From Candidatus Kapaibacterium sp. (GTDB lineage Bacteria > Bacteroidota > Ignavibacteria > Kapaibacteriales > UBA2268): a DNA stretch of 64,000 nt. The notes below the pieces were generated by a model, which was given only the letters and a program-made list of their open reading frames with translations, made no database searches and was not told the origin of the DNA. Both the position numbers and the translations under genes were made by a program. Location of the stretch: assembly GCA_938031175.1 (NCBI GenBank), contig CALHGZ010000001.1, forward strand, positions 62,001 to 126,000. The letters are read 5' to 3'. This document shows, piece after piece, positions 34,069 through 39,081 of the stretch; the first letter of the stretch is position 1, and every line of letters begins with the position of its first letter.

Positions 34069-37000
34069 TTATATCAATTGTGTTTCCAAATATTTTTTTA
34101 TTCTCCATAATATTTCAACGGCTTCATCACGATTATTTATTGAGAAATCAATGGCAATTTTATTGTTTTTTTCTTTAATTTGGCAATTATTCATATTTAT
34201 TAGAAATTCCGAAATTATTGGGAAAGCAACATCATAAAAAGTTTTATTGATTTCATCGGGTAGTTCTATTGTAAACTTATTCTGGTTGAAATATATTTTT
34301 CTGATACCGGTATTAAGGGATGAAATCCTTAATTTCACGACGAAAAACAAATCATATAGAATAGATGGAATTTTACCATATTTATCTTTCAACTCCTGAA
34401 TTAATTCGTCTAATTCTTTATGATCAGCAATTCTGTATAGTTGTTTATAAATTTTGAATCTTTCTGCTTCACTTGGGATATAATATTCTGGGATGTAAGC
34501 ATCTGTATTTATAATAATTTCGAGGTCTTCATTTTTTAGATATATTTTATCTTTATGTTCTTGAATTTTGAAGAGATCATTAAATTCTTCGAATTTCAAC
34601 TCGTTTACTGCTTCATCGAGGATTTTGTGGTATAATTCGAAACCAATATCGGCGATAAATCCACTTTGTTCTGCACCGAGAAGATTGCCAGCACCTCTTA
34701 TTTCGAGATCTCGAAGAGCAAGCTGAAGTCCACTTCCAAGCTCTGTGAACTCTTCGAGTGCTTGAAGTCGTTGGATGGCTTTTTTTGTGAGTGATTTTAT
34801 ATTTGGTACAATCAGGTAGCAGTAAGCTTGTTTGTTAGCACGTCCAACTCTACCGCGTAGTTGATAAAGCTCAGCTAAACCAAAGTTTTCAGCATGATTG
34901 ATTAAAATTGTGTTTGCATTTGGAATATCTAAGCCTGATTCGATTATTTTTGTTGTCAATAATATGGAAAATTTTCCGCTTATAAATCTTTCCATAATTT
35001 TTTCAATTTGAGCAGAAGGCATCTGACCATGTACAATTTCAAAATCTACACCCGGGAATAAAGAATTTATTTTTTCGGCAATTTTATTTATACCAACAAT
35101 TTTATCATTTACGAAAAAAACCTGCCCATTTCTATTCAATTCATTTTCGATTGCTGATTTGATTTTTTTTTCGTCCCATAGTATAATTTCAGTAATGACT
35201 GGCAATCTGTTTTTGGGGGGGGTTTCAATTATGCTTAAATCTCTTGCACCAAGTAGTGAGAAATTTAGTGTTCTGGGAATTGGAGTTGCGGTTAATGTTA
35301 GTGTGTCTACATTTATTTTTAATTTTCGTAATTTTTCTTTTGATGAAACACCAAATCTATGCTCTTCGTCAACGATAAGTAGACCAAGATCTTTAAATTC
35401 AATATCTTTAGAAAGAATGCGATGAGTACCAATGATTATATCAATAATACCATTTTTTAGTTCATTAATAATTCTTTCTTGTTCCTTTTTTGTCTTAAAA
35501 CGTGATAAGACTTCGATTTTTACAGGATATTGACCTAATCTATCTTTAAAGGTTAGATAATGTTGTTGAGCAAGAATTGTAGTTGGGACAAGAATGGCAA
35601 CTTGTTTACCGGCTTGTATTGCTTTGAATGCTGCTCTTACTGCAATTTCAGTTTTTCCAAAACCTACGTCACCGCAAACAAGCCTATCCATTGGTGCATC
35701 CGATTGCATATCTTTTTTTACTTCTTCAGTAGTTTTTGCTTGGTCTGGAGTATCTTCAAATGCAAATGATGCTTCAAATTCTTTTTGCCATAATGAATCT
35801 TCTGGGAAGGCATAACCCTTAGTTGCTTTACGCTCAGCATATAATGTGATCAGTTCCCTTGCTATATCTTTTAATTTTTTCTTGGTTCTGTTTTTTTTAC
35901 GAAGCCATTCGCCGGAGCCTAATTTTGTTAATTGAGGAATAGTTCCTTCTTGAGCAGTATATTTTTGTATTTTATGGATATAATTGAGATTTATGTAAAG
36001 CAAATCATTATCGGCAAATAAAAGCTTGACGCATTCTTGAATACTGTTGCCAAGTTTAATTTTTTCAAATCCGAGGAATTTTCCTATTCCACTGTCTTCA
36101 TAAACAACATAATCACCTATTCGAAGAGACTTTAGTTCATCTAATGTAAAAGTTTTGTGCTTTTGATATTTTTTGTAAGGATTTCGGTGAATTCTATGAA
36201 ATAGTTCATGTTCGGTGAAATAAGCAATTTTGGCATCGTTAAATATGAAGCCTTTTGCAAGTGTAGTATCGCACCAATTTATTTCATTTATTAGATGTGT
36301 CTTAAGGCAATAATTATTATTCTCTGTGTCTTCAATATTTTCTAAGTTATCTTCTATTATTTCTTTTATTCTGTTTAACAATATATCTCCATTAGCTCCA
36401 ATTGTTATATGATAGTTTAAATTTTTGAGGTAAATAATATCAAGACAAAAGTCTTTAATGGAGCTATAGAATTTTGATTGAGGTTTGGAAGTGAATTCGA
36501 TATGCTTAGATCCAAATTTGCCGAATAGTATAGATTTGTACCCTTGAATTAATTCAACAATTTCGGGCTCTTCACTAATAGATATATCATCAATTATTAT
36601 CAAAGAATTTTTTGGGATGTAACTTTTAAATTGATCAATTTCAGAGATTTGGGAAAATCCAATTTTATAGAATTCTATCCTATTAAGTTCATTTATGCTT
36701 CTTTGTGAATTTACATTGAATTCACGGATTGATTCAATTGTATCGCCAAAGAACTCTATACGAATGGGATTTTGACGAGCAATAGGGAATATATCAATAA
36801 TTCCTCCACGTATTGCAATTTGCCCCTGAACGGCGACATATTCTGTACGTTCAAATCCATTTAAAAGCAGTTCTTTGGTAAGTTCTGTAAAATCATAGTT
36901 ATAATTAGTTTTGAGTGTTATTTTATTTGAAGCCAAATATTTTGGCGAAGGTATTGGTGAGTTTACTATTTTGCTATTTGTCAAAACGATGAAATCACTT

Positions 37001-37353
37001 TGATTCATAATTTTTGCAACACCTTCGTATAGCCAGAGATTTTGCGCGATATTAGAATCTTCGATATTGAATAAATATGAAGCAGGTTCATTTAAATCAA
37101 TAATATAGTTTTCGCCATTCAGTAAGGTTAAGTCATTAGAAAGATTATCGTTATTTTCTTTATCCGATGAAATGATAATAATTGGGGTGCGAATTTCTGT
37201 AAAAAGAGCAGATATAATTAATGATTTTATTGAACCAGCAGGTACTTGAATATTAAGCGAATCCTCTTTGTTTAGTAATTCTATTATGTTTTTAAACAAT
37301 ATGGAATTTTTTACTTTTTCAATCAAAATATTATATTTATTAGATTTGCTCAA
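34069..37353 (-). CDS. mfd: Transcription-repair coupling factor Mfd
   Basis: Mfd removes RNA polymerase stalled at DNA lesions and recruits UvrA. In the 1094-residue protein UvrB-like N-terminal domains are followed by the polymerase-interacting domain (L-R-I-G-D-Y-V-V-Y-E-D-S-G-I-G-K-F), the translocase motor with Walker A G-D-V-G-F-G-K-T-E and Walker B D-E-E-H-R-F-G-V, and the TRCF C-terminal domain. The start is TTG at 37353, with GGAGG ten bases upstream (37364-37368). The coding strand contains a run of eight C followed by five A (35210-35222) at E-T-P-P-K-N, exceptional in this AT-rich DNA. Confidence 0.97.
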   Translation of the reverse strand: MSKSNKYNILIEKVKNSILFKNIIELLNKEDSLNIQVPAGSIKSLIISALFTEIRTPIIIISSDKENNDNLSNDLTLLNGENYIIDLNEPASYLFNIEDSNIAQNLWLYEGVAKIMNQSDFIVLTNSKIVNSPIPSPKYLASNKITLKTNYNYDFTELTKELLLNGFERTEYVAVQGQIAIRGGIIDIFPIARQNPIRIEFFGDTIESIREFNVNSQRSINELNRIEFYKIGFSQISEIDQFKSYIPKNSLIIIDDISISEEPEIVELIQGYKSILFGKFGSKHIEFTSKPQSKFYSSIKDFCLDIIYLKNLNYHITIGANGDILLNRIKEIIEDNLENIEDTENNNYCLKTHLINEINWCDTTLAKGFIFNDAKIAYFTEHELFHRIHRNPYKKYQKHKTFTLDELKSLRIGDYVVYEDSGIGKFLGFEKIKLGNSIQECVKLLFADNDLLYINLNYIHKIQKYTAQEGTIPQLTKLGSGEWLRKKNRTKKKLKDIARELITLYAERKATKGYAFPEDSLWQKEFEASFAFEDTPDQAKTTEEVKKDMQSDAPMDRLVCGDVGFGKTEIAVRAAFKAIQAGKQVAILVPTTILAQQHYLTFKDRLGQYPVKIEVLSRFKTKKEQERIINELKNGIIDIIIGTHRILSKDIEFKDLGLLIVDEEHRFGVSSKEKLRKLKINVDTLTLTATPIPRTLNFSLLGARDLSIIETPPKNRLPVITEIILWDEKKIKSAIENELNRNGQVFFVNDKIVGINKIAEKINSLFPGVDFEIVHGQMPSAQIEKIMERFISGKFSILLTTKIIESGLDIPNANTILINHAENFGLAELYQLRGRVGRANKQAYCYLIVPNIKSLTKKAIQRLQALEEFTELGSGLQLALRDLEIRGAGNLLGAEQSGFIADIGFELYHKILDEAVNELKFEEFNDLFKIQEHKDKIYLKNEDLEIIINTDAYIPEYYIPSEAERFKIYKQLYRIADHKELDELIQELKDKYGKIPSILYDLFFVVKLRISSLNTGIRKIYFNQNKFTIELPDEINKTFYDVAFPIISEFLINMNNCQIKEKNNKIAIDFSINNRDEAVEILWRIKKYLETQLI
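35210..35222 (-). repeat. C8A5 homopolymer tract inside mfd
   Basis: On the plus strand this is TTTTT then GGGGGGGG; on the mfd strand it reads eight C then five A, encoding T-P-P-K-N. The present length keeps the frame open. Tracts of this kind are prone to slipped-strand mispairing. Confidence 0.9.
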
Positions 37354-37405
37354 TTTAATGAATCCTCCATCTTAGCTAATGCAAGAGGTTTAACAAAGCT
37401 TAGCT

Positions 37406-37594
37406 TCATTTATCGCAGATAATATTAATATCAGAACCGGCAGGTGGAATTTTGCCAACAGAAATTATATACTGCCGGATATAATTGATTTTTTCTTTTT
37501 TTGTAAGTTTTAAATTGGTATAGATATTATATCTAATGTCATTTAATATATCTTTGACGATGAATTTATATTTTCTAACAGTACAATTAGTCAT
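37406..37594 (-). CDS. Small unknown protein, second of a tandem pair
   Basis: This is a 62-residue basic protein I do not recognise. It shares with its 63-residue upstream neighbour the pattern I-x-x-D-I/T-R-x-N-I, then K-L-T-[KR]-x-E, then I-R, then A-G-S-[ED]-[VI]-[TN]-I near the end, so the two look like duplicates. It is coupled to that neighbour by an ATGA start/stop overlap (37591-37594). No signal peptide, cysteine pair or membrane segment is visible. It lies 52 bases upstream of mfd in the hflX-mfd run. Function is unknown; the context suggests an accessory to nucleic-acid or ribosome biology. Confidence 0.68.
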   Translation of the reverse strand: MTNCTVRKYKFIVKDILNDIRYNIYTNLKLTKKEKINYIRQYIISVGKIPPAGSDINIICDK

Positions 37595-37782
37595 TTAATA
37601 TCAACTGCATTAATTGTAACCTCAGATCCAGCTTTTAATTTTAAATTTTGTGGGTCGTAATTGAAGATTCGTATTTGGTATAACATTTCATTGCGAGTGA
37701 GTTTACGTGGTGCTAAAATTATATAGCGGATATTCTTTCTTGTGTCTTTGATAATGTTTCGTATGAGTTCGTTTTGTTCCAT
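37591..37782 (-). CDS. Small unknown protein, first of a tandem pair
   Basis: This is a 63-residue basic protein. Its N-terminal half is probably helical (N-E-L-I-R-N-I-I-K-D-T-R-K-N-I-R), followed by R-K-L-T-R-N-E and the ending K-A-G-S-E-V-T-I-N-A-V. It resembles the next gene along most of its length. It starts 12 bases after hflX ends and its TGA overlaps the next gene's ATG, so both should be made from the hflX transcript. I find no known family. The conserved duplicated reading frame with standard coupling argues that these are real genes rather than chance frames. Confidence 0.7.
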   Translation of the reverse strand: MEQNELIRNIIKDTRKNIRYIILAPRKLTRNEMLYQIRIFNYDPQNLKLKAGSEVTINAVDIK

Positions 37783-37794
37783 TTTTGTTGTGAT

Positions 37795-39081
37795 TTAATT
37801 AATAATGAATTGTGAAAAAACATTTTTGAAATAGTCAAAATTAGCATTTATTACTTTAACTTCGCAAAAAATACCATCATCAAGATCTTTTCTTGATTGG
37901 ACATCGAATTTTGAGTAAAGAATATTTAAAAGATTTAAATCGCTATAAGGAATTTTAATGCTGAAGATTTTGCTTTGTTGATTGTATCGTTCTTCCATAA
38001 CCCGGAGTAAATTGGAAATATTCAAACCTCTCTGTGCCGATATAAATAAGGCATCAGGATAGAGTTTCATAAAGTTTTTTAACTCGAAATTATCTGTTAA
38101 GAGGTCAATTTTGTTAAAGACATTGATAATTGGTTTATTTTTTATATTGAGAGCATCTAAAGTTTCAAGTACGGCATCTATTTGTTCAGTGTATGCTTTA
38201 TTGGATATGTCAATAATATGTAACAGTACATCAGCGTCTTTAGCTTCGGCTAAAGTGCTTCTAAATGAGGCGATAAGGTGTGCTGGCAGTTTACGTATAA
38301 ATCCGACGGTATCAGATAGCAAAGCTTTGTTCCCATTAGGCAATTTAAAGGTACGAACTGTGGTATCGAGTGTTGCAAAAAGCTTATTTTCAACCTGAAC
38401 ATCGGCTTCAGTTATCATATTCATTAGAGTAGATTTTCCAGCGTTTGTATAGCCAACCAAAGCGAACCGTGGTAATGATTCACGTCCTTTTTTCTGAACT
38501 AACTTTTGTTTATCTATTTCAATTAACTTGGATTTTAGTTTCTGAATTTTAGTTTTTATTACTCTTCTATCTGTTTCGATTTGAGTTTCGCCGGGACCTT
38601 TGGTTCCGATACCACCATATTGTTTGGAGAGGTGAGGCCACATTCGTGTTAATCTCGGAAGAAGGTATTCCAATTGAGCTAATTCAACTTGAGTTTTAGC
38701 CTCGATTGTTCTTGCGTGTTTGGCAAAGATATCTAAAATTAAGCCACTTCTATCAATAACTTTAATGTTAAAATTTTTTTCAAGATTTCGTGCTTGTACT
38801 GGTGTAATATCATTATCGAATATTACCAGCGTAATTTGTTCTTCTTCGATTAGTTGCTTTATTTCCTGAATTTTACCTTTGCCAATTACTGTAGCTGGAT
38901 TGATGGAGTCAAGTTCTTGGATAACTTTTGCGATGATATCGGCACCTGCTGTTTCAGCAAGGAACTCTAATTCATCTATATGTTCAAGTAGTTGTTCCCG
39001 ATCAAGTCCTTTTTTAATAGCAGAAATAGCTAAAGCTCGTTCTGGTTTATGAGTAAAATCAGAGTAATTATTCTCTGGCAT
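37795..39081 (-). CDS. hflX: Ribosome-associated GTPase HflX
   Basis: HflX binds 50S and rescues or splits stalled ribosomes under stress. In the 428-residue protein the N-terminal HflX domain (about 1-190: L-E-F-L-A-E-T-A-G-A, V-I-G-K-G-K, V-I-F-D-N-D-I-T-P-V-Q-A-R-N-L-E) and a coiled linker with G-P-G-E-T-Q-I-E-T-D precede the G domain. That has G1 G-Y-T-N-A-G-K-S-T and G3 D-T-V-G-F-I-R-K-L-P. A C-terminal domain follows. It heads the minus-strand run with the small paralogues, mfd, tsaB and purB. The 60-base gap from the MscS gene may hold the promoter, though co-transcription with that gene is possible. Confidence 0.97.
   Translation of the reverse strand: MPENNYSDFTHKPERALAISAIKKGLDREQLLEHIDELEFLAETAGADIIAKVIQELDSINPATVIGKGKIQEIKQLIEEEQITLVIFDNDITPVQARNLEKNFNIKVIDRSGLILDIFAKHARTIEAKTQVELAQLEYLLPRLTRMWPHLSKQYGGIGTKGPGETQIETDRRVIKTKIQKLKSKLIEIDKQKLVQKKGRESLPRFALVGYTNAGKSTLMNMITEADVQVENKLFATLDTTVRTFKLPNGNKALLSDTVGFIRKLPAHLIASFRSTLAEAKDADVLLHIIDISNKAYTEQIDAVLETLDALNIKNKPIINVFNKIDLLTDNFELKNFMKLYPDALFISAQRGLNISNLLRVMEERYNQQSKIFSIKIPYSDLNLLNILYSKFDVQSRKDLDDGIFCEVKVINANFDYFKNVFSQFIIN

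Follow-up and report, generated by a model that had tools for sequence, protein, structure and literature searches.

Two paralogous small basic proteins behind hflX in Candidatus Kapaibacterium sp.: a candidate accessory domain of the ribosome-splitting GTPase HflX

Layout of the locus

The window analysed here is a stretch of 64,000 nucleotides from Candidatus Kapaibacterium sp. (contig CALHGZ010000001.1, positions 62,001 to 126,000), in which two small genes follow one another on the reverse strand in the order hflX, 63-codon gene, 62-codon gene, mfd (Table 1). Both small open reading frames (ORFs) start with ATG, and they overlap by ATGA at 37591-37594. The end of hflX (37795) and the upstream small gene are 12 bases apart, and 52 bases lie between the downstream small gene and mfd, which starts with TTG at 37353. 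The coordinates, the overlap, both spacings and the naming of the two large neighbours, as given in an earlier note on this DNA, were all borne out by the ORFs and by Pfam. The hflX product matches PF13167 (5.1e-34), PF16360 (5.7e-31) and PF01926 (1.5e-22), i.e., the N-terminal and middle HflX domains and the G domain, and reaches 21.3 bits against HflX_C PF19275, for which the cut-off is 26.4; the large downstream neighbour is recognised as Mfd/TRCF. No family was matched in a Pfam scan of the two small proteins of the window.

Table 1. Genes of the hflX-mfd stretch, with positions in the window
Feature	Position	Strand	Description
Upstream small gene	37591..37782	-	63 codons, pI 9.9; counterpart of the single and fused forms found elsewhere
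Downstream small gene	37406..37594	-	62 codons, pI 9.7; diverged paralogue; a second copy is also present in genome G011
hflX	37795..39081	-	Ribosome-splitting GTPase, 428 aa; small domain linked or fused to hflX in relatives
mfd (TRCF)	34069..37353	-	1094 aa; next downstream gene; neighbour, probably not partner

A 19-codon ORF (MKLSFVKPLALAKMEDSLN; 37350-37409, reverse strand) overlaps the stop codon of the downstream small gene by ATGA and, behind GGAGGA, the start of mfd by TTGA, so that an uninterrupted series of overlapping frames runs from the first small gene to mfd. This ORF may be a chance occurrence.

Paralogy, motifs and predicted fold

By sequence comparison the two small genes are true paralogues, in agreement with the earlier description of them as duplicates of a small basic protein. 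An HMM of 13 upstream-type members (single or fused), from which both downstream copies were excluded, recovers both of them: the downstream protein of the window scores E=1.6e-5 (Z=5000), the second G011 copy 1.1e-8. Shuffled sequences did no better than 0.043 (2000 shuffles of the downstream protein) or 0.01 (all 8000 shuffles of four sequences). Aligned directly, the two window proteins have a local score of 60, which is reached by 0/2000 shuffles (mean 27, sd 5.4). All 15 copies of the domain are basic, with pI values of 8.1-9.9.

The AlphaFold2 model of the upstream protein, made from 13 sequences (mean pLDDT 88, pTM 0.72), is a beta-beta-alpha-alpha-beta arrangement with strands 7-13 and 18-24, helices 30-41 and 44-48, and a last strand 54-58. 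Of the motifs that had been described as shared, K-L-T-[KR]-x-E, a later I-R and A-G-S-[ED]-[VI]-x-I are common to both products; KLT stands immediately before helix 30-41 and AGS immediately before the last strand. The first motif, I-x-x-D-x-R-x-N-I, did not hold: ILNDIRYNI of the downstream protein had been matched to IIKDTRKNI of the upstream protein, whereas the family alignment pairs IVKDILNDIRYNI with IIKDTRKNIRYII, a shift of four residues. The same segment had been read as a helix and is instead predicted to form the beta hairpin of the first two strands.

No clear structural match for the upstream model was found in PDB, BFVD or VIA, the best values being a Foldseek E of 0.37 (PDB) and 0.032 (BFVD) and a VIA Z of 3.2. 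BolA and S. aureus RbfA (E 0.37-0.68, TM-scores near 0.3) are not believed as fold matches, and the top VIA rows are taken up by a stretch of M1 aminopeptidases (Z 3.2, rmsd 4.2).

Occurrence of the small domain

A profile search of the 54 genomes of the family finds a homologue (E <=0.01) in 13 genomes and 6 of 27 genera, and in 11 of the 42 better genomes. Related genomes thus do contain homologues with open frames, on which the earlier note had staked its reading; a wide distribution is not supported, with carriers making up 13 of 54 family genomes. With the upstream protein as query against 100 genomes (54 of the family and 46 of the order), 13 genomes, including this one, are found at E <=8e-11. 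The next match, in G054 (E=0.0029), was dropped as chance together with all lower-ranked rows of that search, as were a match on contig 8 of this genome, G000 (E=0.22), a match in G036 (E=3.0e-4) that falls inside a 440-residue frame, and the lower-ranked rows of the search yielding the latter that lie away from known places. Among named genomes, a scan proposed 33 candidate stretches, and 10 of them were confirmed as carrying a homologue; the carrier records are metagenome-assembled genomes (MAGs) under the titles Kapabacteria, Kapaibacterium, Ignavibacteria, Ignavibacteriae, Bacteroidetes or Bacteroidetes/Chlorobi group.

Wider searches, limited to scoring some 15 first-look candidates in each genome, gave 13 matches at 0.001 in 391 genomes of the class (ten in the family, three outside) and three matches in 395 genomes of the phylum. 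Together they add one credible genome, G322. Three other matches were set aside as chance: one in G382 inside a radical-SAM-like gene, one in G134 inside a glycyl-radical-enzyme-like gene (both genes named from sequence), and one in G314 (E=0.0095) that carries a stop.

Of the 54 family genomes, 50 have a recognised hflX (as a fragment only in G001), behind which the sequence was inspected in every case; the remaining four have neither hflX nor the small domain. Among the 41 family genomes without a homologue, 37 have a recognised hflX, hence HflX does not need the small domain. In one of the non-carriers, G028, whose genus has four carriers, hflX and mfd are kept with a gap of 129 bases and no small gene between them (L166 3326-3454). 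No remnant of the small gene was seen in three frames of this gap, and G028 is a possible case of natural loss.

Linkage to hflX and fusion

In all 13 carriers the small domain lies directly behind hflX or is fused to HflX, the placement in G044 resting on the C-terminal part of hflX, which lies at the end of a contig. It is a single gene in nine carriers, a tandem pair in two (this genome and G011) and a fused domain in two (G018 and G033). The tandem pair is thus not supported as the conserved unit. In most carriers the separate small frame overlaps the hflX stop or begins <=12 bases from it. The stop of hflX overlaps the small gene by ATGA or GTGA in 4/4 genomes of genus g21, where a second in-frame ATG lies within 9 bases in each case and yet the overlapping start is kept.

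The fused gene is one open frame of 513 codons, found in two separate MAGs of genus g19 (G018 and G033; L148 and L147) whose fused proteins are 86% identical. Its HflX portion has the usual length; a linker of about 25 residues then leads to the small domain at the C-terminus. The fused protein was modelled with a mean pLDDT of 72 and a pTM of 0.50; residues 433-453 have a pLDDT <50, as in a disordered linker, and the blocks of 451-510 are at 69-90, as in a folded domain. The small domain is accordingly modelled as folding apart from HflX, in a prediction that is silent on docking.

When mfd is counted as the next gene if it starts within 700 bases, it follows in 11 carriers, the two others having another gene (G006) or a contig end (G033) at this place; among the 37 non-carriers with hflX it follows in 13 and does not in 24. 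The small gene of G006 stays with hflX though the next gene is not mfd. The earlier note placed the pair between hflX and mfd and drew a role from this position alone. The hflX side of that placement holds throughout, and the mfd side in 11 of the 12 assessable carriers. The two fusions to HflX and the arrangement in G006 tie the domain to HflX rather than to Mfd, beyond mere position; a partnership with HflX thus has sequence support, and an equal link to Mfd does not.

Selection and history

Substitutions were counted with a Nei-Gojobori script in 15 pairs, nine of which are saturated. In five unsaturated pairs (G035 against G044, G020, G050 and the upstream copy of G011, and G033 against G018), pN is 0.05-0.13 and pS 0.36-0.73; the fused domain is among those conserved (G033 against G018, pN 0.13, pS 0.59). 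The upstream protein of the window compared with G052 gives a pN of 0.29 and a pS of 0.63. Purifying selection acts on the upstream-type gene, which is a coding gene: a dN/dS near 1, which had been named as a reason to give up the pair, is not what these unsaturated pairs display. Between the two downstream copies pN is 0.41 and pS, at 0.80, is saturated, so that the case for purifying selection is weaker for the downstream copy.

A weak midpoint root (76/57) divides the tree of 49 HflX sequences, with all 13 carriers and six non-carriers on the same side; G028 is sister to the four carriers of its genus. The carrier label changes three times, compared with a mean of 9.0 after shuffling, when carriers are set against the 13 mfd-adjacent non-carriers and the 23 other non-carriers are left out. 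A single gain with losses is a possible history for these sequences. On the tree of the small proteins, where branches are very long and support is weak, the two downstream copies group together (75/83); this weakly supported pairing would imply a single ancient duplication that genus g21 later lost.

Comparison with known families and systems

No credible family match was found in Pfam, NCBIfam, PHROGs, PADLOC or PDB sequences, and the earlier reading of an unnamed small protein holds in these libraries. The best values are 0.016 in Pfam, 0.029 in NCBIfam, 0.61 in PDB sequences and 0.1 in PHROGs (four members and two relatives scanned). Since the weak matches differ between members they were taken as chance, as was PADLOC PD-Lambda-5_A (0.0068), matched by the downstream protein only.

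Like the HflX C-terminal domain (PF19275) and terminal extensions of HflX, the small domain is located at or behind the HflX C-terminus. Unlike PF19275, it follows an HflX of usual length, is mostly encoded by a separate gene and has no profile match. Its strand-strand-helix-strand order resembles the second half of the HflX C-terminal domain in the fused model, and a partial duplication of that domain was considered and rejected, with an hhalign probability of about 0.1% for the 13-row profile against a profile of the 49 family HflX sequences.

Other small proteins of ribosomes and RNA invite comparison. RqcP/Hsp15, which acts in ribosome quality control, is small and basic and has an S4 domain; it possibly works beside split large subunits. 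The proteins described here are also small and basic, but none of the six families listed by Pfam for the 15 members (E up to 10) is S4. The hibernation factors HPF/RaiA (PF02482) are small ribosome-associated proteins; PF02482 is also missing from those six families, and this genome encodes a separate HPF elsewhere. Hfq, a small RNA-binding protein, is encoded beside hflX in gamma-proteobacteria, and to this extent the arrangement is similar. However, no Hfq/LSM family is among the Pfam matches, and the small-protein model has three strands, while the Sm fold has five.

Relatives outside the hflX setting

The one credible homologue outside the family is a 65-residue protein of G322, a genome from another family of the class (profile E=2.3e-12 for one genome, 1.4e-10 in the comparison that also tested the paralogy); in a search of 97 relatives of G322, a convincing homologue was found in G322 alone. 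Its gene sits in a defence-type island (L165 5609-13358). It is flanked by a gene whose 510-residue product has a SWIM-like match, weak and below the cut-off (E=0.29), and by an HNH endonuclease gene, and the same 16 kb hold AbiEi/AbiEii, a TIR-like gene and a response regulator with a Pycsar-cyclase-like match.

A 62-residue protein of the phage-type contig IMGVR_UViG_3300028327_000004 (L164 3995-4183), a more distant relative, is 39% identical to the G322 protein, including an identical ILAYRKLT. The L164 stretch also contains a RusA-like gene, named from sequence. The direct pair P0002-P0004 is not significant (18/2000 shuffles as high), and the phage link runs through P0003 only. Viral contigs yielded no relative to profile A2 (0/78 stretches), and nothing but that same phage contig to a DNA pattern search. 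When the G322 and phage-contig relatives were used as queries (E up to 1) against phage and plasmid records, neither was found. The position of the G322 gene away from hflX, together with the phage-contig relative, argues that the domain is not inherently tied to HflX and can exist without it. The HflX-linked branch may be a recruitment.

Proposed role and alternatives

Unbroken linkage together with fusion usually points to a physical or functional partnership. In one study, E. coli HflX without its C-terminal domain is reported to be impaired in splitting while GTP hydrolysis is intact, and this mobile domain is placed near the E-site, a cryo-EM study placing it otherwise (PMC4770234). In another, HflX is presented as an alternative recycling factor with three domains, seen by cryo-EM to cover the A site (PMC9067457). 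As the C-terminal domain is reportedly needed for efficient splitting (PMC4770234), an add-on at the C-terminal end would sit at a functional site. On the basis of the fusions, the unbroken linkage and these data, an accessory role at the C-terminal end of HflX is proposed. The two genes encode copies of one basic domain of about 60 residues, which would serve as a detachable C-terminal subunit of HflX and occurs in three arrangements, as a separate protein in most carriers, as a covalent C-terminal domain in genus g19 and as a duplicate in this genome and one other. The free protein might bind, via its basic surface, HflX and/or the large ribosomal subunit near the HflX C-terminal domain. Such binding would tune either docking on stalled 70S ribosomes or their splitting, and a second copy may act as a second subunit or as a heterodimer partner. 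That the small domain is an accessory subunit or domain of HflX, tuning ribosome splitting, is the reading we consider most likely, with moderate confidence; the binding, contact, target and effect of the small protein on HflX or the ribosome are what we infer within it.

The defence-type setting in G322, the similar phage-contig relative and the basic character of all these proteins would also suit an independent nucleic-acid-binding protein (of rRNA, mRNA or DNA) from the phage or defence pool, a chance settler between hflX and mfd that the fusion only co-localises. A chance settler should have moved, however, and the linkage to hflX is kept in 13/13 carriers of six genera, with two fusions, which makes such a protein rather unlikely. 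Also unlikely, as a combined history, is that a domain from the phage or defence gene pool was recruited to HflX in the Kapabacteria-type branch, spread there as subunit, pair and C-terminal domain, and alters the choice of stalled ribosomes that HflX splits. A partnership with Mfd, or with HflX and Mfd together as a link between stalled ribosome and stalled polymerase, would explain why mfd is next more often in carriers than in non-carriers. Since 13 genomes have hflX and mfd together without the small domain, this adjacency looks like background, and with G006 keeping the hflX linkage alone and no fusion to Mfd seen beside the two to HflX, such a partnership is very improbable. We give equally little credit to a purely local regulatory role outside ribosome splitting, e.g., operon autoregulation or coupling of translation to mfd: the tight packing and overlapping frames from hflX to mfd speak for it, while the conserved amino acids (pN well under pS), the confident fold and the fusion to HflX speak against it.

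For an HflX accessory domain, the natural fusion is a ready construct in which the whole and the cut protein can be compared, making the role of the add-on directly testable. HflX is a widespread ribosome-splitting factor, and a dedicated partner of such a kind is apparently undescribed; no description of a dedicated small HflX partner or fused domain was found in the open-licence literature searched. Compensation for an absent rescue or hibernation factor was considered and rejected, as carriers and other family genomes do not contrast: NFACT (PF05833) is encoded in 11 of the 13 carriers and 34 of the 41 others, and HPF in 12 and 36, respectively.
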